The notes under the pieces were generated by a model. The model was not told the origin of the DNA. It saw only the letters and a list, made by a program, of their open reading frames with translations, and did not search any database. A stretch of 64,000 nt of DNA, taken from positions 434,001 through 498,000 of the forward strand of contig NZ_FNNP01000001.1 of assembly GCF_900106805.1 (NCBI RefSeq), in the 5' to 3' direction. Each line of letters opens with the position of its first letter. Within the stretch, counting starts at the first letter, position 1. The stretch is from Ruegeria halocynthiae. Its GTDB lineage: Bacteria > Pseudomonadota > Alphaproteobacteria > Rhodobacterales > Rhodobacteraceae. This document shows, piece after piece, positions 44,902 through 59,157 of this stretch. The position numbers were made by a program, and so were the translations under genes.

Positions 44902-45681
44902 ATGGAGCAGACAGATGTGACTGGTCGGCAACCGGAGGATGCGATCTTGGCTGTTTTGTTGGACAAGAGCCGCTATCGCGCCCGCTTGGCGCAATCCGGG
45001 CAGGACGTCGCTGCGGCACAGGCACTGCGGATGCTGGCCTTCGGGACGGATCGGCCGGATTGTGATCCCTTTGATCAGCATTGTAAGCATGTGCTGGTCG
45101 AAGACATGCGGGCGGGTGGCAAATTGGTCTGCTGTTTCCGAATGCTGACGATGCAGGACGGCAGCGAGATCGGGCTGAGCTATTCGGCGCAGTTCTATGA
45201 CCTGTCAGCGCTGAACGATTTCTCGGGACCAATGGTTGAGATGGGCCGATTCTGCGTCCACCCGGACTGGGCTGATCCGGATATTCTGCGCGTCGCGTGG
45301 GGGGCCATGACAGCATATGTCGATCAGAACGGGGTTGAGATGCTGTTCGGTTGCTCGTCTTTCGCGGGGACCGAGACTGCCGAGTACCTGGATGCCTTTG
45401 CCATGCTCAAACACCGGCATCTGGCGCCGAAACGCTGGCTGCCTCGTGTTAAAGCACCGGATGTTTTTCGATTTGCGGCACGGCTGCGCCGACGTCCCAA
45501 CTTAAAACAGGCAATGCTGCGGATGCCGCCCTTGCTGCGCACCTATCTGATGATGGGGGGGTGGGTCAGTGATCATGCGGTGGTGGATCGGAACATGAAC
45601 ACGCTGCACGTGTTCACCGGCCTCGAGATCGGAGCGATTCCCGATAAACGAAAACGTTTGCTGCGCGCTGTTGCCAGGTGA
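44902..45681 (+). CDS. olsB: Putative L-ornithine N-alpha-acyltransferase (OlsB-like)
   Basis: A GNAT-fold acyltransferase of about 259 aa. It contains RYRARLAQSGQDVAAAQALR, MLAFG, DPFDQHCKHVLVEDMRAGGK, LVCCFRM and VEMGRFCVHPDWADPDILRV, a pattern seen in OlsB and hemolysin-like proteins of COG3176. OlsB adds a 3-hydroxyacyl chain from ACP to ornithine, the first step of ornithine lipid formation. No olsA-like PlsC gene adjoins it, so lyso-ornithine lipid would be acylated by an enzyme encoded elsewhere. Start ATG 44902 (MEQTDVTGR) is likely. The family call is good; the exact substrate is less certain. Confidence 0.68.
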   Translation: MEQTDVTGRQPEDAILAVLLDKSRYRARLAQSGQDVAAAQALRMLAFGTDRPDCDPFDQHCKHVLVEDMRAGGKLVCCFRMLTMQDGSEIGLSYSAQFYDLSALNDFSGPMVEMGRFCVHPDWADPDILRVAWGAMTAYVDQNGVEMLFGCSSFAGTETAEYLDAFAMLKHRHLAPKRWLPRVKAPDVFRFAARLRRRPNLKQAMLRMPPLLRTYLMMGGWVSDHAVVDRNMNTLHVFTGLEIGAIPDKRKRLLRAVAR

Positions 45682-48195: not shown

Positions 48196-48951
48196 TTAAC
48201 GCATCCTCAGTGCACCGTCGATGCGGATGACCTCTCCGTTCAGGTAGCCCATTTCGACAATGAACCCGGCTAGGCGCCCGTATTCGCGCGGATCGCCAAG
48301 GCGGGCGGGGTTGGGAACGTCGGCGGCGAGTTGCTGTTGTACCTCTTCGGGCAGACCCGCCAGCATCGGAGTCATGAAGATGCCCGGCGCGATGGCCATC
48401 ACACGGATACCGGTCGAGGCCAGATCGCGCGCCATGGGTAGCGTCATGCCAACCACGCCGCCTTTGGAGGCTGCGTAAGCCGCCTGACCCTTTTGCCCAT
48501 CAAAGGCGGCGATGGAGGCGGTGTTGATGATCACGCCGCGCGCACCGTCAGGTTCGGGATCGTTTTTAGCCATTTCTGCCGCAGCGAGGCGCGAGACGTT
48601 GAAGGAGCCAACTAGATTGATGTCGATGGTGCGCTGGAATGCATCCAGAGGGTGGGGGCCGTCTTTGCCAACCGTTTTGGCGCCGATCGCGATTCCGGCG
48701 CAGTTCACGGCGGCGGTGATGCGGCCCATCTTGTCCATCGCCTGCGCAATGGCCGCTGAAACCGAAACCTCATCCGTCACATCGGTTTGCGCGAAATGAC
48801 CGCCGATTTTGGTCGCGATCTGCGGGCCGCGCTCGGCATCGCGGTCAAGGATGGTGACCTGCGCGCCGTTCTCGGCAAAGTGACGGGCCGTGGCCTCACC
48901 CAAACCGGAGGCTCCGCCGGTGATAACCGCAGCTGTGGTTGAGAGATTCAT
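48196..48951 (-). CDS. SDR, HSD10-like 3-hydroxyacyl-CoA dehydrogenase
   Basis: A 251-aa classical short-chain dehydrogenase. [15 protein letters not shown] is the NAD motif, VNCAGIAIG the N-x-A-G motif, and [20 protein letters not shown] with ASKGG gives the Ser-Tyr-Lys catalytic set. Sequence pattern ([21 protein letters not shown], and [11 protein letters not shown] at the end) is that of type-2 3-hydroxyacyl-CoA dehydrogenase. It oxidises short or branched 3-hydroxyacyl-CoA, but other hydroxy substrates are possible. GlxA-type regulator gene lies upstream in the same direction. Confidence 0.88.
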
Positions 48952-49025: not shown

Positions 49026-49994
49026 TCAATCGAGTCTGGCGCGTTGTTGCATCGGTGTGATGCCAAAGGCGGCCCTGTAGACACGCGAGAAATGGCCAGC
49101 ACTTTCGAACCCACAGGCAAAGGCAACCTGGGTCACTGAAGATTCGGTTTGCAGCAACAGATTTCGGGCCCGTTCCAGTCGCAGTTCCATGAAATATTTC
49201 TTGGGCGATGTGTTCAGGAATTTTCCGAACAAGCGTTCCAGTTGGCGGGTCGAGATGCCAATATCGCTGGCAATGATCGAAGGTGACAGCGGGCTTTGTA
49301 TGTTTTTGGTCATGATGTTGATGGCCTTCGCCAGATGCGCGTTCCGCATCCCATTGCGCGATTGCAGAGAAACGCGTTGATCGGCGGTGGCGTTGCGCAC
49401 GGCGTTATAGACCATCTGATCGGCCACCGCGACCGACAGATCATTGCCATGGTCGCGTTCAATCAGGTGCAGCATCAGATCGGCGGTAGCTGTGCCGCCC
49501 GAGGCGGTCATGTGTTTTTCATCGGCGACAAAGACGCTGCGAACCAGGTTGATTTCAGGAAAAGCCTCCATGAAGGAATCGTGGTATTCCCAATGGATTG
49601 CAGCCTGCATTTCGTCCAGAAACCCGGCTTCGGCCAGCAGCCAGGCGCCAGAACACAGTGCGCCGATACTGGTCCCACGCGCGCGTTCGCGGCGCAGCGC
49701 AGCAAGGAGCGGTTTCGTGACATGATTGCGCATGTTGATGCCCGACAGAACAAACAGCTGGTCACATTTTGGAACCGGGCTTAGCCCGCCATGCACCAGC
49801 GTGATAGAACCGTTGGAACAAATAGCCTGTTCCCCGTGCTCGGACAGGAAGGACCATTTGTAAAGTTCTTCGCCTGCCACCCAATTGGCAATGCGCAAAG
49901 GTTCGACCGCGCAGGAGAAGGCGAGATGCGAGAATTCTTTGACCAGAATGAATACAAAGTGCTGCGTTTGTCTCATTGGCTGGACCGGAATCAT
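49026..49994 (-). CDS. GlxA-family AraC-type transcriptional regulator
   Basis: A 322-aa regulator with an N-terminal DJ-1/PfpI-like domain (HFVFILVKEFSHLAFSCAVE, and GTSIGALCSGAWLLAEAGFL with the nucleophile-elbow Cys) and a C-terminal AraC double HTH (PSIIASDIGISTRQLERLFG, RNLLLQTESSVTQVAFACGF, ESAGHFSRVYRAAFGITPMQ). Members such as GbdR, CdhR and ArgR-like regulate glycine betaine, carnitine or arginine catabolism, in keeping with the betaine-type genes next door. It is divergent from GntR across a 116-base gap. Start ATG 49994 or 49976. Confidence 0.9.
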   Translation of the reverse strand: MIPVQPMRQTQHFVFILVKEFSHLAFSCAVEPLRIANWVAGEELYKWSFLSEHGEQAICSNGSITLVHGGLSPVPKCDQLFVLSGINMRNHVTKPLLAALRRERARGTSIGALCSGAWLLAEAGFLDEMQAAIHWEYHDSFMEAFPEINLVRSVFVADEKHMTASGGTATADLMLHLIERDHGNDLSVAVADQMVYNAVRNATADQRVSLQSRNGMRNAHLAKAINIMTKNIQSPLSPSIIASDIGISTRQLERLFGKFLNTSPKKYFMELRLERARNLLLQTESSVTQVAFACGFESAGHFSRVYRAAFGITPMQQRARLD

Positions 49995-50035
49995 TGGTGT
50001 TTCGAGAACTTCGGGTATGCTGCACGAAAACTCAC

Positions 50036-50051
50036 TGTATACAACATGTAT
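50036..50051. promoter_or_regulatory. Candidate GntR-type operator between the divergent regulators
   Basis: TGTATACA is a perfect eight-base palindrome of the FadR/GntR pattern, directly followed by ACATGTAT; ATACA-ACA-TGTAT is a second overlapping inverted repeat. It lies about 60 bases before the GntR gene, in the gap shared with the GlxA regulator, a natural place for autoregulation. Confidence 0.45.
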
Positions 50052-50110
50052 TTTTATAAGCTACCACAGGACTAGAGTTCGATTCGTGAAGAGATGGCGA
50101 AAGGGATTGG

Positions 50111-50821
50111 ATGAGGGACGAGGGAAGATCACCCAAGCAGGAACTGGCTGATCATCTAAAGATGTCAGTTCTGACCCTGCGTTTGCATCCCGGAGAGGAT
50201 CTGGACGAGGCGCAGTTGTCGCAGGCCTTTGGTCTGTCGCGCACGCCATTGCGCGAAGTGTTCCGGCAGTTAGCGGGTGAGGGCTATCTGGACTTGCGCA
50301 CCCATCGTGGGGCGCGGGTGTCCGAGATGTCTCATACCACGTTGCGCGATTTCTTTCTGGTGGCACCGATGGTTTACGGGGCGGTGCTGCGGCTGGCGGC
50401 GGCCAATGCGACGTCGGCACAGATTGACCAGTTGAAAGAAGCGCAAGAGACGTTTCGGCAGGCCTTGCGTACAGGCTCGGCTGAGGATCGAACGCTGGCC
50501 AACACGCGGTTTCACGAGGTGACCGGAGAGATGGCAGGGAATGTCTATTTATCCCCTTCGTTCAACCGGTTGCTGATCGATCACGCGCGGATCGGGATGA
50601 CGTTTTATCGCCCGCAAACCAAGCGGGTGGCCGAGAACCTGTCGGAGGCGAGCACCCAGCACGACGCCATAATCGCCGCCATCGAGGCGGGCGATGAGGC
50701 GGCTGCTGCGCAGCTGGCCGACGACCACTGGACCCTGTCACGCGATCAGATCGAGCTGTTCGTGATGCCCGAGGGTCTGGATTTTCCGCTGGGGCAGGTC
50801 CCTGGCATGACACCTGCATGA
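50111..50821 (+). CDS. GntR-family regulator, FCD subfamily
   Basis: A 236-aa repressor-type protein: an N-terminal GntR winged helix (PGEDLDEAQLSQAFGLSRTP, LREVFRQLAGEGYLDLRTHR) and a C-terminal all-helical FCD ligand-binding domain with the metal His residues in ANTRFHEVTGEM, STQHDAIIAAIEAGDE and ADDHWTLS. FCD domains bind carboxylates. It is first in the rightward catabolic operon, eight bases from the dapA-like gene, and probably controls it. Confidence 0.93.
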   Translation: MRDEGRSPKQELADHLKMSVLTLRLHPGEDLDEAQLSQAFGLSRTPLREVFRQLAGEGYLDLRTHRGARVSEMSHTTLRDFFLVAPMVYGAVLRLAAANATSAQIDQLKEAQETFRQALRTGSAEDRTLANTRFHEVTGEMAGNVYLSPSFNRLLIDHARIGMTFYRPQTKRVAENLSEASTQHDAIIAAIEAGDEAAAAQLADDHWTLSRDQIELFVMPEGLDFPLGQVPGMTPA

Positions 50822-50828
50822 GGGACTT

Positions 50829-51746
50829 ATGACTCCGATCTTCAGATTTGAGGGTATCTATACTCCGGTGGTGACACCCTACGCGGTAGATGGCGACGTC
50901 AATTGGGACGCGTTAGCCGAGGTGATCGACTTTCTGGTTGAGAAGGGCGTTCACGGGATGATCTCGGGCGGATCGACCGGTGAGAACTATGCCCAGACGG
51001 TTGATGAACGGCTGGAACTGGCGCGCTTTACCCATGACCAGCTCAAAGGCCGTCTGCCCTTGGTTGTCGGCACCGGCGCCATGCTAACCGGTGATTCCAT
51101 AGCCTTGGCCACCGGCGCGAGAGAACTGGGCGCGGATGCGATCCTGTTGGCCAGCCCTCCGTATTCGGTGCCGACAGACCGTGAGAATGCGCTGAACGCG
51201 CTGGCGATCGACAAGGCCGCCGATCTGCCGGTGATGCTGTACAATTATCCGCACCGCACCGGCACGATGATGGGGGAAGAATTTCTGGATCGTGTGGGGC
51301 GCAGCCGGAACTTTTGCGGTATCAAGGAAAGCTCGGGCGATATCAACCGGGTACACCTGCTGGCGCGGGATTACCCGCATATCCAGCTGGGCTGCGGCAT
51401 GGACGATCAGGCGCTGGAGTTCTTTGCCTGGGGCGCACCCTTCTGGGTGTGCGGCGGATCGAACCTTTTACCCGCTGAACATGTGGCGCTGTATCAGGCC
51501 TGTGTGGTCGAGGGTAACTTTGCCAAGGGACGCAGGATCATGTCTGCCCTGATGCCGCTGATGCGGGTGCTGGAGCAGGGGGGCAAGTTCATCCAGACGA
51601 TCAAGCATGGGGTCACCATGAATGGGATCGATGCAGGGTCGGTGAGGCCGCCTCTGAAAGATCTGAACAAAGATGATAAACGCGCTTTGGAACAGGTGAC
51701 GCGCGTTCTGAAACGCAAAATCGCAGATATCGTGGCGGAGGATTGA
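50829..51746 (+). CDS. DapA-family aldolase/deaminase
   Basis: A TIM-barrel Schiff-base enzyme of 305 aa. The catalytic Lys166 is in NFCGIKESSGDINR, Tyr138 in VMLYNYPHRTG, and the substrate-carboxylate loop is SGGSTGENYAQT. The family includes dihydrodipicolinate synthase, N-acetylneuraminate lyase, and pyrroline-4-hydroxy-2-carboxylate deaminase of hydroxyproline breakdown. Diaminopimelate synthesis is unlikely because the gene sits with catabolic genes and is adjacent to an aldehyde dehydrogenase, exactly the pairing used to turn hydroxyproline intermediates into 2-oxoglutarate. Four bases separate it from the next gene. Confidence 0.88.
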   Translation: MTPIFRFEGIYTPVVTPYAVDGDVNWDALAEVIDFLVEKGVHGMISGGSTGENYAQTVDERLELARFTHDQLKGRLPLVVGTGAMLTGDSIALATGARELGADAILLASPPYSVPTDRENALNALAIDKAADLPVMLYNYPHRTGTMMGEEFLDRVGRSRNFCGIKESSGDINRVHLLARDYPHIQLGCGMDDQALEFFAWGAPFWVCGGSNLLPAEHVALYQACVVEGNFAKGRRIMSALMPLMRVLEQGGKFIQTIKHGVTMNGIDAGSVRPPLKDLNKDDKRALEQVTRVLKRKIADIVAED

Positions 51747-51749
51747 GGC

Positions 51750-53273
51750 ATGGGTTTGCTGACGAAAGACGAATACGACTCGATCGCTGCGAATTTGGAT
51801 TTGCCGACAGGTGCATTCATTGATGGCGGTTACCGCCCGGCGATCTCGGGTCAGGTGTTTGAGACCGTGAACCCGGCCACCGGTGCGGTGCTGACCAACA
51901 TTGCCGCCTGCGGAGCGGAGGATGTGGATTTCGCTGTCGAAAAGGCGCGTGAGGCGTTTGAGGATGGGCGTTGGTCAAAGACGCACCCGTCGGATCGCAA
52001 GGATGTGCTGATCCGCCTGTGCAAGCTGATCACCCGAAACGCGCGAGAGCTGGCTGTGATAGAAAGCATCGACAGCGGCAAAACGATCTATGATTGCGAA
52101 ACCGTCGATGTGCCCGAGACAATCCATTGCCTGAAATGGCATGCTGAGGCGATTGACAAGATCTATGATCAGGTCTCACCGGCTAGTGATGATCACATCG
52201 CAATGGTGGTGCGGGAACCCATTGGTGTTGTCGGATTAGTGTTGCCGTGGAACTTCCCACTGCTGATGTTGGCGTGGAAGATCGGCCCAGCGCTGGCGGC
52301 GGGCTGTTCGGTGGTTGTGAAACCGGCGATGGAAACGACCCTGACCGCTTTGCGACTGGCAGAACTGGCGATGGAAGCCGGGTTGCCGCGCAGCGTTCTG
52401 AACATCCTTCCCGGCGGTGGGGCCGAGGTCGGTGAACCCATCGGGCGGCACATGGATATCGACATGGTATCCTTCACCGGTTCGACAGTCACCGGCAAGC
52501 GGTTCCTGAGCTATTCGGCAGAAAGCAACGCCAAGGAAGTGGTGCTGGAGATGGGCGGCAAGAACCCCGCCATCGTGATGGAGGACGCCGAGAACCTGGA
52601 CCGCGTGGCGGCGCATATCGTCAATGGCGCGTTCTGGAATATGGGCGAGAACTGCTCGGCCTCGTCGCGGTTGATCGTGCACAAGGATGTGAAGGCAGAG
52701 CTGTTGGAGCGGATTGCGCATCATACCAAGCAGTGGAATATCGGCGACCCGCTGGATCCGGAAACCCGTATGGGCGCACTGGTCAGCGAAGCGCATTACA
52801 CCAAGGTGTGCGGCTATCTGGATCAGGCCGAAAACGTTCTGATTGGTGGCAAGACCGACGCGGTAAGTTCTGGCGGCAAAGCCGCCGGGGGCTTTGTCGA
52901 AGCCACTGTGGTTGAGGTGCCGGGCAATGACAGCACATTGGCGCGCGAGGAGATATTCGGCCCGGTGCTGTCGGTGATCGAAGTCTCTGGCTATGACGAA
53001 GCGATCAGCATCGCCAATGACACTGAATACGGCCTGTGCGCTTCGATTTTCACATCAAACGCCAAACGGGCCATCCGGGCTGCGCGCGCGATCCGCGCAG
53101 GAACTGTCACGGTCAACAGCTTTGGTGAAGGCGATATCAGCACACCTTTTGGCGGTTATAAGCAGTCGGGCTTTGGCGGTCGGGACAACTCGCTCCACGC
53201 CCATGACCAATACACACAGTTGAAAACCATCTGGATCGATTTGGCCGACGATGAAGATGAGGCCGTGGATTGA
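51750..53273 (+). CDS. NAD(P)-dependent aldehyde dehydrogenase
   Basis: A 507-aa ALDH with catalytic Cys302 (FWNMGENCSASSRL), Glu267 (VVLEMGGKNPA) and Asn168 (LPWNFPLLML), and the cofactor motif SFTGSTVTGKR. The sequence is closest to the PuuC / gamma-glutamyl-aminobutyraldehyde branch. In this operon it would oxidise the semialdehyde made by the DapA-like enzyme, possibly 2-oxoglutarate semialdehyde. Its end overlaps the next gene by four bases. Confidence 0.9.
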   Translation: MGLLTKDEYDSIAANLDLPTGAFIDGGYRPAISGQVFETVNPATGAVLTNIAACGAEDVDFAVEKAREAFEDGRWSKTHPSDRKDVLIRLCKLITRNARELAVIESIDSGKTIYDCETVDVPETIHCLKWHAEAIDKIYDQVSPASDDHIAMVVREPIGVVGLVLPWNFPLLMLAWKIGPALAAGCSVVVKPAMETTLTALRLAELAMEAGLPRSVLNILPGGGAEVGEPIGRHMDIDMVSFTGSTVTGKRFLSYSAESNAKEVVLEMGGKNPAIVMEDAENLDRVAAHIVNGAFWNMGENCSASSRLIVHKDVKAELLERIAHHTKQWNIGDPLDPETRMGALVSEAHYTKVCGYLDQAENVLIGGKTDAVSSGGKAAGGFVEATVVEVPGNDSTLAREEIFGPVLSVIEVSGYDEAISIANDTEYGLCASIFTSNAKRAIRAARAIRAGTVTVNSFGEGDISTPFGGYKQSGFGGRDNSLHAHDQYTQLKTIWIDLADDEDEAVD

Positions 53274-54610
53274 CGGCGTACTCTGCCAAACGTCTGCCCA
53301 AGCAGACTGGCACGGCAGGGTGGAACGCCATCCTGCCACCGCAGCGGGAACTGCCCCGGCTCGCGCAAGACCAGACCGCAGATGTGACCATCATCGGCGG
53401 CGGTTTTGCGGGGCTTTCGGCAGCGCGGAGACTACATCAGCTTGATCCGGGGTTGAAGGTTGTTGTGCTTGAAGCCGGGCGCTTTGCCGAAGGCTCTGCC
53501 GGGCGCAATTCGGGCTTTATGATCGACCTGCCGCATGATCTGGCCTCGGACAATTATGCCAGCGACGGGTTGGAGGCGGACCGGGCCACGATCGGGCTGA
53601 ACCGGCAGGCCATTTCCTTTGCGAGGCAGGTAGCAGAAGAGTGTGATTTGCCGCTTGAGGTGTTTGATCCGTGCGGCAAGATCAATGCCGCCGCGACACC
53701 GGCAGGGGATCGGCACAATGCGGATTACGCCGCGCATCTGACACGGCTGGGAGAGCCTTTTGAGCTGTATGATGCGCACCAGATGCAGGCCCTGACAGGC
53801 AGTCCGCATTACACGTCCGGCCTGTTTGCGCCGGGGACTGTGATGATGCAACCTGCGGCTTACGTGCGTGCGCTGTCGGCGCATCTGGAGGGGCAGATCG
53901 GGGTTTATGAGAACTCGGGTGTGACCGGTTTTCGCAAGCAGGGCGGCGCCTGGGAAGTTGAAACCAAAAAGGCAAAAGTCTCGACCGGGCGGATCGTACT
54001 GGCCAACAACGGACATATCGAAAGCTTCGGATTCTATCAGCGGCGTTTGATGCATATCTGTCTTTACGCGTCGCTGACTGAACCGCTGACGGCCGAGCAA
54101 ATCGCCACGCTGGGTGGTCAGCCACGCTGGTCAGTGACCCCGGCGGATCCGATGGGCACCTCGGTTCGGCGGATTTCTGGCAGCTGCGGAGATCGTATAC
54201 TGATCCGAACCTGTTCGAGTTTTCACCCTTCGATGCAAAGCAGCGACAGCCATTTGAGCCGGGCTGGCAAGGTGCATGGTCAAAAGTTTCAGGAACGGTT
54301 TCCGAACCTGCCAGATGTGCGGATGGAGCACCGCTGGGCCGGGATGCTGTGCCTCAGCCGCAATGGCTCGGCCGCGTTTGGTGAGGTCGAGCAGGGGGTC
54401 TTTGCCGCCTGCTGTCAAAACGGGCTGGGGATCGCGCGCGGCACGCTGCAAGGGATGGGTGCGGCGGAACTGATGGTGCAGGGCAGGTCGGATATTGCCG
54501 ATCATTTTCTGGCGCAGCCGATACCACCTCGGCTACCGCCCGAACCCTTCGCGTCGGTGGGGGCCAATACGTATCTACGCTGGAAGGGGTGGCGTTCGGG
54601 GGCGGAGTAG
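53270..54610 (+). CDS. FAD-dependent amine/amino acid oxidoreductase (DAO family, PuuB-like)
   Basis: A flavoprotein of 446 aa with dinucleotide motif VTIIGGGFAGLSAARRLHQL and ATG-like end VVLEAGRFAEGSAGRNSGFM, as in PuuB and glycine oxidase relatives. The C-terminal DAO segment MEHRWAGMLCLSRNGSAAFG and QNGLGIARGTLQGMGAAELM completes the FAD site. It could demethylate an N-methyl amino acid or oxidise a D-amino acid such as cis-4-hydroxy-D-proline. The start is TTG 53270, which overlaps the ALDH stop; no ATG occurs for about 80 codons. Confidence 0.85.
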   Translation: MTAYSAKRLPKQTGTAGWNAILPPQRELPRLAQDQTADVTIIGGGFAGLSAARRLHQLDPGLKVVVLEAGRFAEGSAGRNSGFMIDLPHDLASDNYASDGLEADRATIGLNRQAISFARQVAEECDLPLEVFDPCGKINAAATPAGDRHNADYAAHLTRLGEPFELYDAHQMQALTGSPHYTSGLFAPGTVMMQPAAYVRALSAHLEGQIGVYENSGVTGFRKQGGAWEVETKKAKVSTGRIVLANNGHIESFGFYQRRLMHICLYASLTEPLTAEQIATLGGQPRWSVTPADPMGTSVRRISGSCGDRILIRTCSSFHPSMQSSDSHLSRAGKVHGQKFQERFPNLPDVRMEHRWAGMLCLSRNGSAAFGEVEQGVFAACCQNGLGIARGTLQGMGAAELMVQGRSDIADHFLAQPIPPRLPPEPFASVGANTYLRWKGWRSGAE

Positions 54611-54622
54611 CCGGTGGACTGT

Positions 54623-55357
54623 TCAAGGCAGGCTGAGTTTTGCCATCCGTCCGCCATCGACTGTGTAAATCTGGCCGGTGACAAAACCCGCCTCTTCGGC
54701 GGCCAGAAAAGCGACCAGCGCGGCCACTTCTTTGGGATCGCCTGTGCGGCCTACCGGGTGAATGCGGGCGATATCCCGGCGGAACGCGTCGGGGTCGTCC
54801 ATGCTGTCGATGAAATCGAGGTTGAGATCGGTATCGATCCAGCCCGGTGCCACCGCATTGCAGCGGATGCCCTCTGCGCCGTGATCAACTGCAACCGCGC
54901 GGGTCAGCCCGTGCAGCCCGGCCTTTGAGGCGCAATAGGCGGCGTGGCCCGGATTGCTGCCCAATCCTTCGACCGAGCCGATATTGACGATGCTGCCTTT
55001 GGTTTTGCGCAGATGCGGCAGCGCGGCCTGTATCAGCAGGAACGGGGCGGTTAGATTGACAGTCAGGCTGCGCTGCCAATCCGCCAGAGACATGTCGTCG
55101 ACCGATGCTTCCTGCATCATGCCGGCGTTGTTGATCAGTACGTCCAGTTGGCCTGCCTGAGCAATGACCTGCTCGATGATCCGAGCGGGGCTGTCCGGGT
55201 CTGAAAAATCCGCCGGGAACGAGGGGAAGTCGTCATCCGCGCCGCGTTGAGCGGTGTAAACATTGGCCCCTTCGTCGCGCAGGCGTTGGGCGATGGCGCG
55301 GCCGATACCGCTGCGCCCGCCGGTCACAAGGGCGGTTTTTCCGGCAAATCTGTTCAT
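54623..55357 (-). CDS. Short-chain dehydrogenase/reductase (SDR) 1 of the accessory cluster
   Basis: A 244-aa classical SDR. TGGRSGIGRAIAQRL is the cofactor motif, INNAGMM the N-N-A-G, SVEGLGSNPGHAAYCASKAG gives the catalytic Tyr-x3-Lys with Ser, and GRMAKLSLP ends the protein. It has an ATGA overlap with the second SDR, so both are one transcript. Substrate unknown; the second SDR in tandem suggests two successive or stereospecific alcohol oxidations. Confidence 0.88.
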   Translation of the reverse strand: MNRFAGKTALVTGGRSGIGRAIAQRLRDEGANVYTAQRGADDDFPSFPADFSDPDSPARIIEQVIAQAGQLDVLINNAGMMQEASVDDMSLADWQRSLTVNLTAPFLLIQAALPHLRKTKGSIVNIGSVEGLGSNPGHAAYCASKAGLHGLTRAVAVDHGAEGIRCNAVAPGWIDTDLNLDFIDSMDDPDAFRRDIARIHPVGRTGDPKEVAALVAFLAAEEAGFVTGQIYTVDGGRMAKLSLP

Positions 55358-56085
55358 TGGACCGGCTTGCCTCCGTTCACTTCGACCAGCGCACCGCACA
55401 TATAGCGCGCCGCGTCCGAGACCAGAAACAGGATCACATCCGCGATATCCGCAGGCTCGGCGATCCGGCCCAGCGGCACCGATTTGCCCAGCTCGGCAAC
55501 GGCAGTATCGGGATCAAACCCGCGTTTGGCAAAGCCCGAGCGCAACATGGGCGTGTTCACCTCGTTCGGGCAGACGGCGTTGATACGGATGCCCTGATGC
55601 GCGTGATCCTGCCCCATGCACTGGGTCAGGCTGGCTATGGCCGCTTTGGTCATGCAGTAAATCGCGTGATCGGGGCCGGGTCTGAGACCCCAGCAGGACG
55701 CGGTGTTGACAATTGCACCGCCACCAGCCGCTGCCATGATCGGGATCGCAGCGCGACAGATGCGGAACGGGGCCTCGACATTCACACCTAGTGACAAGGC
55801 CCAATCGTCGTCAGAGGTTGCGGTCACGGCCCCGCGCGTGATGACGCCTGCATTGTTGACGACGATATCGAGACTGCCCAGCGCCTCTGCGGCTTTCGCG
55901 GGCAATGCGTCGGCATAGGTCGGGTCCAACAGGTCACCGGGCAAATGCACCTCGGCGTCGATCCCGTCGACCGAGCGGTCAGCAACGGCCACGCGCGCAC
56001 CTGCTGCCCGCAAGCGCTGTACCAGAGAGGCTCCGATACCCCCAGCGGCGCCGGTCACCAGGGCTGTTTTTCCTGTGAATTCCAA
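55354..56085 (-). CDS. Short-chain dehydrogenase/reductase (SDR) 2 of the accessory cluster
   Basis: A classical SDR of 243 aa: TGAAGGIGASLVQRL, VNNAGVITRGAV, NTASCWGLRPGPDHAIYCMT with K as catalytic Tyr-x3-Lys, VNGGKPVQ end. A TTG start at 56085 is favoured because GGAGG lies five bases before it, while the frame can extend only to the TTG at 56097 that directly follows the stop of the upstream enolase gene. Function probably linked with that enolase and SDR 1. Confidence 0.86.
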   Translation of the reverse strand: MEFTGKTALVTGAAGGIGASLVQRLRAAGARVAVADRSVDGIDAEVHLPGDLLDPTYADALPAKAAEALGSLDIVVNNAGVITRGAVTATSDDDWALSLGVNVEAPFRICRAAIPIMAAAGGGAIVNTASCWGLRPGPDHAIYCMTKAAIASLTQCMGQDHAHQGIRINAVCPNEVNTPMLRSGFAKRGFDPDTAVAELGKSVPLGRIAEPADIADVILFLVSDAARYMCGALVEVNGGKPVQ

Positions 56086-56097
56086 ATCCGCCTCCAA

Positions 56098-57201
56098 TCA
56101 GAACGATGCGACCGGCACACCAAATCGGCGTTCGTCGGGCGTGATTCCAAGCCCCGGTCCGGTTGGAACGCGGATACGGCCGCCTTCGATCCGGATGCCG
56201 TTCTCAGGATCGTAGTTGCCTTCGATATAAGGTGCCGCCAGCCATACACCTTCGAGCAGTTCCGGCTTTACCGTCGCGCCGATATGAGTGCACGCGGCTG
56301 CGATAATGTCTCCGCCCCAACTGTCATCACAGGTATGGGGCAGGTTGCGCGCCTCGCAGAGGTCGCGGAAGGCGCGCATCGGGTGCAGGCCACCGATACG
56401 CGTGACTTTCATGCCAAACCCGTCCACCAGCCCGGTACCTGCCGCGGTGATGATGGTGTTCAGGCTGGTGCTGTTTTCGTCCATGTAGATCGCGTGGCCA
56501 ACCTGAGGCCGTATCTTCTGCAGATCTTCGATCGTGTTGCAGGGTTGTTCCATGATGAACGGAATATCGGGGCATTCGCGGCTGACACGCAGCGCATCGC
56601 GGGTAGTCCAGCCCCGGTTGCCATCCACGGCAAGGCGCATGCCAGATCCGCCGATCACCTCCCAGACTTTGCGGATGGTTTCGATGTCCAACTCGACTGG
56701 GCGACCGCCGACCTTGATCTGCAGGCGGAGATAGCCCTCGGCCTGTTTCTCTGCCGCCAAGCTTGCAATATCGTCCGGGGCACCGATACCAGTTGCGTAG
56801 TAGGAGGGCACCTTGTCCGTTACTGCACCGCCCAGCAGGGTCGAGACGCTGATACCATAGAGCTTGCCCAGCAGATCATGCGCTGCAATATCAATCGCCG
56901 CCTTGGCGTAATTGTGCCCGTTCAACAGGTCGTCCATGCGGCGATGCAGCCCCAGCGGTGAAACCTCGGCCCCCAGTAGATCAGGGGCCATCTGCGCAAG
57001 CGCGGCGCGGGCACCGGATGCGTGCGATTCGGCATAGGTGGGGCCAACCGGGCAGGTCTCGCCCCAACCGATGAGGCCATTTTCGGCGATCAGTTTGACC
57101 AGAGTTGTATCCAACGCCCAGACCTGCGCCCGGGCCATTGTATAGGGGCCGTTCTTGACCGGCAGATCGTGGCTGTAGATGTGGATTTCCGCGATTTTCA
57201 C
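56098..57201 (-). CDS. Enolase-superfamily racemase/dehydratase resembling hydroxyproline-betaine 2-epimerase
   Basis: A 367-aa mandelate racemase/MLE-group enzyme. Metal ligands Asp193 (AVDGN), Glu218 (IMEQP) and Asp241 (YMDEN) and the two general bases Lys163 (LQIKVGG) and Lys265 (GMKVTRIGG) are in place. The two-Lys arrangement is that of 1,1-proton transfer (epimerase/racemase) enzymes. From memory the sequence is close to HpbD of Pelagibaca bermudensis, the 4R-hydroxyproline betaine 2-epimerase, whose catalytic residues carry the same numbers. cis-3-hydroxyproline dehydratase is an alternative in this subgroup. It is followed by the two SDR genes. Confidence 0.85.
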
Positions 57202-57278
57202 TGTGTGCGTTTCCCGCTGTTTTTAATGGAAAATTCCCGCCCCATGATTCGGGGCGGGTGAGTTTAGGGGAGTGTGCG

Positions 57279-58829
57279 CTAGTAAGCCTGATTCAACTCG
57301 TCAGCCGCCGGAATTTCCCGTTCGCGTCGCGCGATGTAGTCCAGCAGTTCCTCATTCTTGGCGATGTCGAGCGTTGGTTCCTGATACTCAGCAAGCAGTT
57401 TGCGGGCGTGTTTCAATGCACGTTCGGTGATTTCGACGCAGCCTTCGGCTTGCCATTGCTCGATTGAGTTGTTGTCGAACATGTCAGGCATAAAGAACGC
57501 CTCTTGAAAGTTGTCTTGGGTATGGGGATGGCCCAGATAGTGACCTCCGGGACCGATATCGCCAACGGCGGAAACAGCCTGATCAAAGTCATGCCATTTT
57601 GGGCCCTCGGCCATGCGGTAAGCCATGGCGCATTGTTCCGCGTCTACGATGAATTTGGCGGTCGAACAGTGCATCCCGGCCTCGTTCCAGCCAGCCGAGT
57701 GCCAGATATAGTTGGCGCCCGCATGGATCACCGCCTGCAACGTGGTGGCGGACTCGTAACCCGCCTGCGCGTCAAACGTCTTTGCCCCGCCCAGCGTGTT
57801 TGAGGTGCGCCATGGCACGTCGTAATACCGGGCCATCTGCCCGATCATGAAGTTCATCAGGCTGATCTCGGGCGTGCCGGCCATTGGTGCGCCGGATTTC
57901 ATCGAGACAGTCGACAGGTAATGCCCGTAGATCGCGGGCGCGCCCTTGCGGATCACCTGCGTATAGGCCAGCGCGCTGAGCGCTTCGGCGTTCAGCTGCG
58001 CCACGGTGGCTGGCACGCTGGCGGGCGTATTGGCCCCGCCCAGCACGAAGGGTGAACACAGCACCGGCTGATTGCGGCGGCAGAAGGCGCGCATCGCGCC
58101 CAGCATGGTTTCATCCCAGACCAGCGGTGAGTTGCCATTGCAGTTGCCGGTGGTGACGGGGTGATCATCAAGGAAATCTTCGCCAAACAGGATGGCACAC
58201 ATGTCCATGACATCCTCGGCATTCTTGGGGCTGGTGGTCATGCCCATGAATGTCTTGTCCGAGTGTTTCATCGACGAATAAGTGATCCGCAGGTGCCGCT
58301 GGCTGATCGGGTGATCATAAGGCTCGACGATGTGATGGGCCGAGGAATGCATCGCGGGCAGCATATGGCTGAGCATGTGGAACATCGCCAGATCATCCAG
58401 CATCGGGTTGCGGCGCACATTGTCCAGATCACGCAGGAACGGCGCGCCGGTCATCGGCACGAAGATCGAGTGTTTGCCACCAAGTCGAACGTTCTTTTTT
58501 GGATCGCGCGCGTGGTAGGTGAAATCTGACGGTATGGTTGCGATCAACTCGCGCACCAATCCCCGATCAAGATAGACCAACTCACCCTCGACCTTGGCAC
58601 CGGCCTTCTTCCAGTCTTGCAACGCGATGGGGTCACGGAACTGAACGCCTACATTTTCCAGAACATCCATCGAGGCCGTATCGATGCGTTCAACCTGTGC
58701 ACCGTCCATAACCTCGCATAGCGGAATACCGCGTGTCAGTCCGGGCAACATCTCGAAGTTCGGAGCGGTGCGCAGGGCGCGGCGGGCCGCGCGCCCTCCG
58801 CTACGTGTGGCTGTTGCGGTTCTGGTCAT
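57279..58829 (-). CDS. MttB-family methyltransferase, non-pyrrolysine
   Basis: A 516-aa member of the trimethylamine/betaine:corrinoid methyltransferase family. MLPGLTRGIPLCEVMDGAQV, DPIALQDWKKAGAKVEGELV, FVPMTGAPFLRDLDNVRR, TTGNCNGNSPLVWDETMLGA, AGTPEISLMNFMIGQMARYY and GPGGHYLGHPHTQDNFQEAF are recognisable segments. There is no in-frame TAG, so it lacks pyrrolysine and belongs with MtgB (glycine betaine) and MtpB (proline betaine) types. The ATG at 58829 follows GGAGG by six bases. No corrinoid protein gene adjoins. It is first in a leftward transcript with the enolase and SDR genes. Confidence 0.88.
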   Translation of the reverse strand: MTRTATATRSGGRAARRALRTAPNFEMLPGLTRGIPLCEVMDGAQVERIDTASMDVLENVGVQFRDPIALQDWKKAGAKVEGELVYLDRGLVRELIATIPSDFTYHARDPKKNVRLGGKHSIFVPMTGAPFLRDLDNVRRNPMLDDLAMFHMLSHMLPAMHSSAHHIVEPYDHPISQRHLRITYSSMKHSDKTFMGMTTSPKNAEDVMDMCAILFGEDFLDDHPVTTGNCNGNSPLVWDETMLGAMRAFCRRNQPVLCSPFVLGGANTPASVPATVAQLNAEALSALAYTQVIRKGAPAIYGHYLSTVSMKSGAPMAGTPEISLMNFMIGQMARYYDVPWRTSNTLGGAKTFDAQAGYESATTLQAVIHAGANYIWHSAGWNEAGMHCSTAKFIVDAEQCAMAYRMAEGPKWHDFDQAVSAVGDIGPGGHYLGHPHTQDNFQEAFFMPDMFDNNSIEQWQAEGCVEITERALKHARKLLAEYQEPTLDIAKNEELLDYIARREREIPAADELNQAY

Positions 58830-59157
58830 ATGGTGCCTCCCTTCCTGTTCAGTGTGAAACGGATGGGGTGGGCGCCACATGCAGGAATGCGAAAGACTAT
58901 TGCGAAATGCGACGCCGTGGGATCGCAATGAAAAACGACCACCCAAAGGTGGGCCCATAGAGTGGTATTGTTGACCTCATGGTTATGTCGAATTTGGCAC
59001 GTTCAGACAAAAAATATATCCGAAAATACCTTTGTAAGGGCTTTCGTGTTTGGCATTGCTCAATGGCGGATAAGCGGGACAAAACCGCCGTTGAAGCTAC
59101 TGCCTGGTCACGACATATTACACCGTCTGAGCCACAATGAACTAAGATGAGTCGAAC
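58830..59157. other. Upstream region of the MttB operon and boundary with orphan gene
   Basis: A 328-base gap with no coding frame. It holds the direct repeats listed below, a short hairpin CCACC-CAAA-GGTGG (58938-58951), and an AT-rich right half leading into the compositionally different gene at 59158. No clear promoter motifs were identified for either neighbour. Confidence 0.45.
58888..58913. promoter_or_regulatory. Candidate AraC/GlxA-type direct-repeat operator before the MttB gene
   Basis: TGCGAAA, six bases, TGCGAAA, then TGCGAC: seven-base direct repeats, about 60-85 bases before the methyltransferase start. Direct repeats are the usual form of AraC-family sites, and a GlxA/AraC regulator is encoded in the cluster. 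Function is inferred. Confidence 0.35.

Follow-up and report, generated by a model that had tools for sequence, protein, structure and literature searches.

Introduction

In Pelagibaca and Paracoccus, hydroxyproline betaine and proline betaine are reportedly broken down by a pathway comprising the epimerase HpbD, a Rieske demethylase, HpbA, a cis-4-hydroxyproline (c4Hyp) oxidase, a deaminase of the dihydrodipicolinate synthase (DHDPS) family and an α-ketoglutarate semialdehyde (KGSA) dehydrogenase. Excerpts of PMC4113996 describe a c4Hyp pathway made up of an oxidase, a DHDPS-family deaminase and a dehydrogenase. In Ruegeria pomeroyi, according to excerpts of a 2025 paper (PMC12478193), glycine betaine is demethylated by a split system of MtgC-, MtgD-, DUF1638- and RamA-type proteins, whose MtgC also serves methionine synthesis as part of a split methionine synthase; the same excerpts state that aerobic marine bacteria hold up to seven PF06253 paralogues, most of them without a known substrate, and suggest other methylated compounds. 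MttB enzymes vary widely in substrate, as an excerpt of PMC12155760 puts it. Here we analyze a gene cluster of Ruegeria halocynthiae that combines an HpbD-type epimerase with an MttB-family methyltransferase. By "the window" we mean the whole stretch of 64,000 nucleotides that was analyzed (contig NZ_FNNP01000001.1, positions 434,001 to 498,000), from a host genome of 4.24 Mb. An earlier account made from the letters of this DNA, hereafter the sequence-only reading, had proposed a betaine pathway that joins an HpbD-like epimerase to an MttB homologue acting in place of the Rieske oxygenase; taken as a whole, that interpretation is partly supported. We propose that the cluster probably turns 4-hydroxyproline betaine into 2-oxoglutarate by an aerobic, cobalamin-dependent route, with an accessory cassette that would widen the range of stereoisomers used.

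The gene cluster

The locus consists of two convergent gene sets that meet at 54.6 kb of the window: a GntR-type regulator, a DapA-family enzyme, an aldehyde dehydrogenase (ALDH) and an FAD-dependent oxidase (FADox) on the plus strand, facing MttB, HpbD and two short-chain dehydrogenases/reductases (SDR1 and SDR2) on the minus strand. A GbdR-like regulator lies beyond.

49026..49994, minus: GbdR-like regulator of the AraC/GlxA type; 316.7 bits to NF052371 (GbdR), short of the 480-bit cut-off; also close to the cluster in many relatives
50111..50821, plus: GntR-FCD regulator, core; PF07729 and PF00392; precedes DapA in many relatives
50829..51746, plus: DapA-family Schiff-base enzyme, core; proposed pyrroline-4-hydroxy-2-carboxylate deaminase; PF00701, 186 bits; Lys166
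51750..53273, plus: ALDH, core; proposed 2-oxoglutarate semialdehyde dehydrogenase; PF00171, 535 bits; Cys302
53270..54610, plus: FADox, an amine oxidase of the DAO superfamily, core; proposed (N-methyl-)4-hydroxyproline oxidase; PF01266, 145 bits; AlphaFold2 (AF2) model
54623..55399, minus: SDR2, accessory cassette; putative partner of SDR1; PF13561, 203.3 bits; in-frame ATG at 55357; follows SDR1 in the HpbD loci compared
55354..56097, minus: SDR1, accessory cassette; may act on the ring hydroxyl; PF13561, 171.8 bits; near HpbD in 61 of 64 rows
56098..57201, minus: HpbD-type betaine 2-epimerase (enolase superfamily, MR_MLE), accessory cassette; 605 bits to 4e8g, 594 to 2pmq/4h2h
57236..57258, minus: terminator-like hairpin in the 77-nt mttB-hpbD gap, found by a scan
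57279..58829, minus: MttB-family non-pyrrolysine quaternary-amine:corrinoid methyltransferase; proposed 4-hydroxyproline betaine:MtgC methyltransferase; PF06253, 703.7 bits

Ten genes are open frames, all of which score in the families expected of them in profile searches; the gene cluster is real and not an artefact. MttB has 516 amino acids when counted from the ATG at 58829, and a longer frame opens at 58958. The GlxA-type regulator is not called a GbdR member because its score falls short of the equivalog cut-off, though GbdR is its nearest family. Alignments, in which the window protein is present twice and some genomes twice, keep Lys166 of DapA in 99 of 99 rows and Cys302 of ALDH in 101 of 101; together with Lys163 and Lys265 of HpbD (below), these are the residues named by the sequence-only reading, and its families and residues are confirmed by profile scores and alignments. 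A further SDR gene at 48196-48951 was rejected as a cluster member, since just two of the 80 HpbD loci introduced below, the nearest ones (L012 and L013), have it. A search for a cobalamin riboswitch returned no Rfam family at gathering score between positions 45000 and 62000 of the window, and a sigma-70 promoter scan was uninformative (1 site against 3.1 expected).

A conserved unit around MttB

The distribution of the genes was analyzed in a sample of 394 genomes of the family, with E-value limits of 1e-170 for MttB, 1e-100 for HpbD and 1e-115 for DapA. MttB and DapA are present in 95 genomes each and HpbD in 20. Both MttB and DapA occur in 88 genomes, MttB only in 7, DapA only in 7 and neither in 292 (Fisher p 3e-70, kinship ignored), and they lie within 12 kb of each other in 73 of the 88 genomes that hold both. 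MttB accompanies HpbD in 19 of the 20 HpbD genomes (p 7e-12, kinship likewise ignored). Sixty stretches, picked mostly by rank and not at random, were fetched; DapA or FADox is present in 48 of the 57 that carry MttB, including 39 of the 47 without HpbD. In two loci (L157 and L163) the genes form a tight run, GntR-DapA-ALDH-MttB-FADox, without HpbD, in which ALDH and MttB overlap by 4 bp and the MttB-FADox gap is 1-2 bp. What is conserved is the unit GntR-DapA-ALDH-MttB-FADox, in many cases lacking HpbD. In a quick tree with long paralogue branches, the 111 distinct MttB rows from these loci fall into a single clade with SH-aLRT (approximate likelihood ratio test) support of 100, separate from the six other paralogues of the host genome. 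On plasmid pB of Cereibacter sphaeroides 2.4.1, a strain that is tractable in the laboratory, the cluster includes proVWX, a betaine-type ABC transporter, between the two regulators.

Two further genes were seen between ALDH and FADox: a pyrroline-5-carboxylate reductase (P5CR)-like gene in L132 (12344-13099) and an NAD(P)-binding protein in L192 (11430-12203).

The HpbD-SDR1-SDR2 cassette

The HpbD of the window is 71.7% identical to 4e8g and 68.8% identical to 2pmq, both of which we take to be betaine epimerases. Plasmid genes of about 70% identity carry the annotation 4-hydroxyproline betaine 2-epimerase, and Lys163, Lys265 and Trp320, the last presumably a functional residue, are kept in 100 of 100 rows. 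Assignment as a cis-3-hydroxyproline dehydratase was rejected: the score to NF043002 is 261 bits (cut-off 500), and among structures those of HpbD come first at 594-605 bits, well ahead of 4mgg in the following place at 228 bits. The identification as an HpbD-type betaine epimerase is supported by genomics, as is the claim of the sequence-only reading that the locus serves betaine catabolism.

HpbD loci were compared in a set made up of the best 80 of 220 loci in named genomes, among which the closest are from Ruegeria. In 53 of the 80, an MttB of at least 60% identity lies no more than 12 kb from HpbD, the median gap being 74 nt. Loci with MttB have DapA, ALDH or FADox of this kind in 49 of 53 cases and SDR1 in 51 of 53, against 4 and 7 of the 27 other HpbD loci; betaine-type ABC genes are found within 12 kb of HpbD in 19 of the 53. 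Several of the MttB-less loci, among them L040, L056, L068, L070 and L080, are short or cut contigs; an MttB fragment at the edge of L070 was left out of the count of 53. A Rieske gene or reductase is near HpbD in 6 of the 80 loci, two of which also have MttB. Two Paracoccus loci (L057 and L103) combine a Rieske pair with HpbD-SDR1-SDR2, and no MttB is present in either stretch. A Halomonas locus (L086) was not counted as a Rieske replacement, as it has a Rieske-type reductase and no Rieske subunit among the six frames tested.

Among the 111 rows of the MttB clade, HpbD and SDR1 are both present in 61, HpbD only in 3, SDR1 only in 8 and neither in 39. The tandem SDRs, for which the sequence-only reading had found no place in the known route, are not stray: SDR1 accompanies HpbD in 61 of the 64 HpbD-bearing rows. 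On the MttB tree, state changes number at least 15 for HpbD (64 rows), 19 for SDR1 (69 rows) and 11 for the core (99 rows), counts that are upper-bounded and inflated by cut contigs and stretches. These changes and the HpbD/SDR1 linkage suggest that HpbD-SDR1-SDR2 is a cassette added to or lost from the core set. The cassette likewise looks accessory because MttB-DapA-ALDH-FADox is common without HpbD (20 HpbD genomes against 95 with MttB among the 394), and for the same reason HpbD as a necessary step of the route is not supported. In the neighborhood analysis of this MttB clade, a check that the sequence-only reading had named, MttB is linked to DapA, ALDH and FADox, and HpbD is not a constant partner.

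Where HpbD lies no more than about 130 nt downstream, 28 of 45 distinct sequences have a hairpin like that of the window after mttB; among sequences from loci lacking HpbD, 3 of 47 do, including L133, a locus with the SDRs. Shuffled sequences give expectations of about 0.2 and 0.3. Many of the hairpin loci are related, yet the stem letters vary among lineages. The hairpin may lower expression of the cassette or protect the mttB message.

Some further features were seen around hpbD. Leisingera plasmid loci L105 and L100 share the same flanks and cluster, and their MttBs are constant at 91-92%, yet one HpbD is 67% identical to that of the window and the other 87%; an in-place exchange of hpbD may explain this. 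Another kind of LysR-Rieske set, at times accompanied by an ALDH, recurs beside these clusters and MttB-less HpbD copies (L014, L019, L058, L066 and L100), and P5CR-like genes are near hpbD in L102 and L086.

MttB and the corrinoid system of the genome

MttB far exceeds the cut-off of 25 bits for the MTTB family PF06253, and it scores 491 bits to 4yyc and 339 bits to 2qne (MtgB). The place of pyrrolysine is taken by Leu346 in 116 of 116 rows, and there is no in-frame pyrrolysine codon. The host genome holds seven PF06253 genes and three B12-binding matches. The corrinoid candidate (L098:7421-8281) has both B12 domains over the Pfam cut-off and reaches 195 bits with MtgC-type NCBIfam models, below their cut-off of 370; a DUF1638 gene overlaps it. 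An MtgD-type pterin-binding methyltransferase (PRK07535, 404 bits, cut-off 259) is encoded close to a RamA-like reactivase gene. The label MetF2 for the gene preceding MtgD was dropped, as there was no family match at the limits used and the name would rest on position alone. A relative of MtgC is present in 362 of the 394 family genomes; of the 95 genomes that carry this MttB, 90 have one when the results are read by eye.

The MtgC-, MtgD-, DUF1638- and RamA-type genes are unlinked to the window, whose frames include no corrinoid protein or betaine transporter, as the sequence-only reading had said in naming its main gap. Both kinds occur elsewhere in the genome: the four corrinoid-system genes close the corrinoid gap, and there are four OpuAC substrate-binding proteins. 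Its substitution of MttB for the Rieske oxygenase also gains ground, in that MttB stands where some relatives have a Rieske pair and a corrinoid partner is in the genome. The hpb-type Rieske enzyme and HpbA, expected of a member of the Rieske-type hpb pathway, were not found in the host genome: its three Rieske oxygenases are only 27-35% identical to reference Rieskes, the best HpbA relative is 29% identical, and none of these four proteins reaches an NCBIfam cut-off.

A second MttB paralogue of the host genome lies in a set (L095:4491-11975) with a DAO-GCV_T enzyme, an Ldh_2 enzyme and a D-amino-acid-dehydrogenase-like enzyme. A Ruegeria locus (L045) has an MttB relative of 93%, neighbors that are 73-81% identical, and HpbD; an Aliiroseovarius locus (L089) has an MttB relative of 86% with HpbD, HpbA and a BCCT transporter. 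Judged by its neighbors, this set is probably the proline betaine counterpart. The neighbors of two other MttB paralogues (L001 and L002), inspected by eye only, gave no substrate hint.

The DapA-ALDH-FADox trio and hydroxyproline

In Paracoccus alcaliphilus and Rhizobium johnstonii, a gene for 4-hydroxyproline epimerase stands some 4 kb away from homologues of DapA-ALDH-FADox, and neither stretch contains MttB. The epimerase calls (L190 and L191) score 578 and 518 bits to NF010578 (cut-off 376), the DapA relatives of these clusters are 74% and 59% identical to the window DapA, and in both species a glycine-betaine-type ABC transporter lies between the trio and the epimerase gene. The Rhizobium johnstonii stretch further carries genes for formaldehyde removal, a reductase and a Rieske oxygenase that is 45% identical to the hpb-type enzyme. 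A 70% HpbA (partial) is present in a relative from Rhizobium esperanzae. The AF2 model of FADox (pLDDT confidence score 90.7) has glycine oxidase, L-proline dehydrogenase, sarcosine oxidase and dimethylglycine dehydrogenase as its top PDB folds. The trio fits hydroxyproline breakdown, in line with the downstream enzymes giving 2-oxoglutarate that the sequence-only reading had envisaged.

Proline racemase-like genes of L082, L136 and L177 were rejected as 4-hydroxyproline epimerases, as all three have Thr in the second motif; NCBIfam assigns that of L136 to the trans-3-hydroxyproline dehydratases (632 bits, cut-off 550). On plasmid 1 of Paracoccus denitrificans (L188 and L195), DapA-ALDH-FADox and a glycine-betaine-type ABC transporter lie about 10-15 kb from mau methylamine genes, perhaps by chance.

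Proposed route and alternatives

From gene content, family membership, residues, linkage, co-occurrence and the MtgC-, MtgD-, RamA- and DUF1638-type genes, all of which were computed, we infer the substrate, the order of the steps, the role of the SDRs and the exit of the second methyl group. MttB would pass one N-methyl group of 4-hydroxyproline betaine to the shared corrinoid protein MtgC, from which MtgD would hand it to tetrahydrofolate. FADox would then oxidize the remaining N-methyl-4-hydroxyproline, the DapA-family enzyme would open and deaminate the product to 2-oxoglutarate semialdehyde, and ALDH would oxidize the latter to 2-oxoglutarate. HpbD is predicted to invert C2 of the betaine, and inversion of the C4 hydroxyl via a ketone may fall to the tandem SDRs; further stereoisomers would thereby enter the core. 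The second methyl group might leave in either of two ways: FADox may act on the N-methyl compound, with DapA releasing methylamine, or a demethylase elsewhere may remove it, such as the DAO-GCV_T enzyme at L095:5466-8108. A fuller scheme can be offered only tentatively and is, on balance, doubtful: the core would dismantle the betaine without a second N-demethylase, FADox oxidizing the N-methyl ring and DapA expelling methylamine instead of ammonia; HpbD-SDR-SDR would be a stereochemical funnel dosed by the hairpin behind mttB; and separate MttBs for hydroxyproline betaine and proline betaine would share the methionine-making corrinoid protein.

Three other explanations were considered. HpbD might define the pathway as in Pelagibaca, with epimerization first and MttB merely replacing the Rieske enzyme in an otherwise identical route, as the sequence-only reading had it. 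The closeness of MttB to HpbD (within 12 kb in 53 of 80 loci, median gap 74 nt) and the Rieske pair beside the same cassette in two Paracoccus loci speak for this order, which is nevertheless unlikely: of the 47 fetched MttB loci that lack HpbD, 39 still have a core gene, and the MttB tree implies at least 15 gains or losses of HpbD. Slightly less likely still is the idea that the core acts on another quaternary amine, such as proline betaine, carnitine or glycine betaine, and that hydroxyproline-type enzymes merely share the locus. MttB enzymes do vary widely in substrate (PMC12155760, in excerpt), 76 of the 95 MttB genomes lack HpbD, and the regulator is GbdR-like; against this, DapA is in 88 of the 95 MttB genomes, within 12 kb in 73 of them, and a different paralogue set (L095 and its relative L089) is a better fit to proline betaine. 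Degradation of free 4-hydroxyproline by the cluster, with MttB there only incidentally, seems quite improbable. It would account for DapA without MttB in 7 of the 394 genomes and for the trio near a 4-hydroxyproline epimerase without MttB, but in several genomes MttB sits between ALDH and FADox so tightly that the gene ends overlap or abut, no 4-hydroxyproline epimerase was seen in the window cluster, and HpbD and the betaine-type transporters of relatives point to a betaine.

The proposal of an MttB-dependent 4-hydroxyproline betaine route has points against it as well. The exit of the second methyl group is its weak point, because only 8 of 111 MttBs have the known second demethylase, HpbA, nearby. 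The substrate assignment rests on context, because MttB is far from MtgB (339 bits), the sole enzyme of known substrate compared. Neither FADox nor the DapA-family enzyme has a close characterized relative in these searches: for FADox, no PDB sequence matches at 1e-10, and for the DapA-family enzyme the best PDB match is a DapA at 138 bits. Nine of the 57 fetched MttB loci have MttB without any core gene, and one more has a lone FADox. When eight of the former and the lone-FADox locus were followed in their nine genomes, DapA was found elsewhere in six and, at 1e-60, in none of the other three; in the ninth no-core locus (L173, genome G178) DapA is 70 kb away. Rieske and MttB are not strict alternatives, because L082, L156 and L177 have both in one locus. 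MtgC, though needed, discriminates little because almost every genome of the family has a relative of it (362 of 394). Finally, the HpbD locus set is rich in Ruegeria and Leisingera and thus not independent, some of its contigs are cut, and the inflation of the state-change counts noted above applies here too.

Comparison with known systems

No publication describing this cluster was found by titles and abstract openings among the matches listed, where coverage is poor for subscription journals. With the route proposed here, one PF06253 paralogue gains a specific candidate substrate and candidate partners. The route suggests that B12-dependent demethylation in oxic water extends to cyclic betaines; if true, another marine nutrient would be tied to vitamin B12. 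Because the MttB clade is present in 95 of the 394 sampled family genomes, a wide effect on B12 demand and nitrogen remineralization is possible.

The locus resembles the Pelagibaca/Paracoccus pathway in its HpbD (69-72% identical), in its FAD oxidase, DapA-family enzyme and ALDH, and in the betaine transporters of relatives; it differs in having MttB in the place of the Rieske pair, HpbA near only a few MttBs (the 8 of 111 above) and an optional HpbD. With the MtgBCD system of Ruegeria pomeroyi, as described in excerpts of PMC12478193, it shares the MtgC-, MtgD-, DUF1638- and RamA-type genes of the genome and a PF06253 methyltransferase that would feed them, whereas its predicted substrate is 4-hydroxyproline betaine and its MttB is linked to a dedicated downstream gene set. 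MtpB of Eubacterium limosum (PMC12155760, in excerpt) is likewise a non-pyrrolysine member of the MttB superfamily associated with a cyclic betaine, a likeness at the level of superfamily and substrate type; MtpB, a proline betaine methyltransferase, differs in coming from an anaerobic acetogen. Catabolism of trans-4-hydroxyproline with 4-hydroxyproline 2-epimerase (4HypE), as excerpted from PMC4113996, also employs enzymes of the D-amino acid oxidase (DAAO), DHDPS and ALDH superfamilies, and 4HypE is near the trio homologues in two genomes; here, in contrast, a quaternary amine would be demethylated first and no 4HypE was seen in the cluster. In sum, the gene context argues that the locus is likely to be the hydroxyproline betaine pathway in a modified form, with B12-dependent methyl transfer replacing the oxygenase and HpbD demoted to an accessory.

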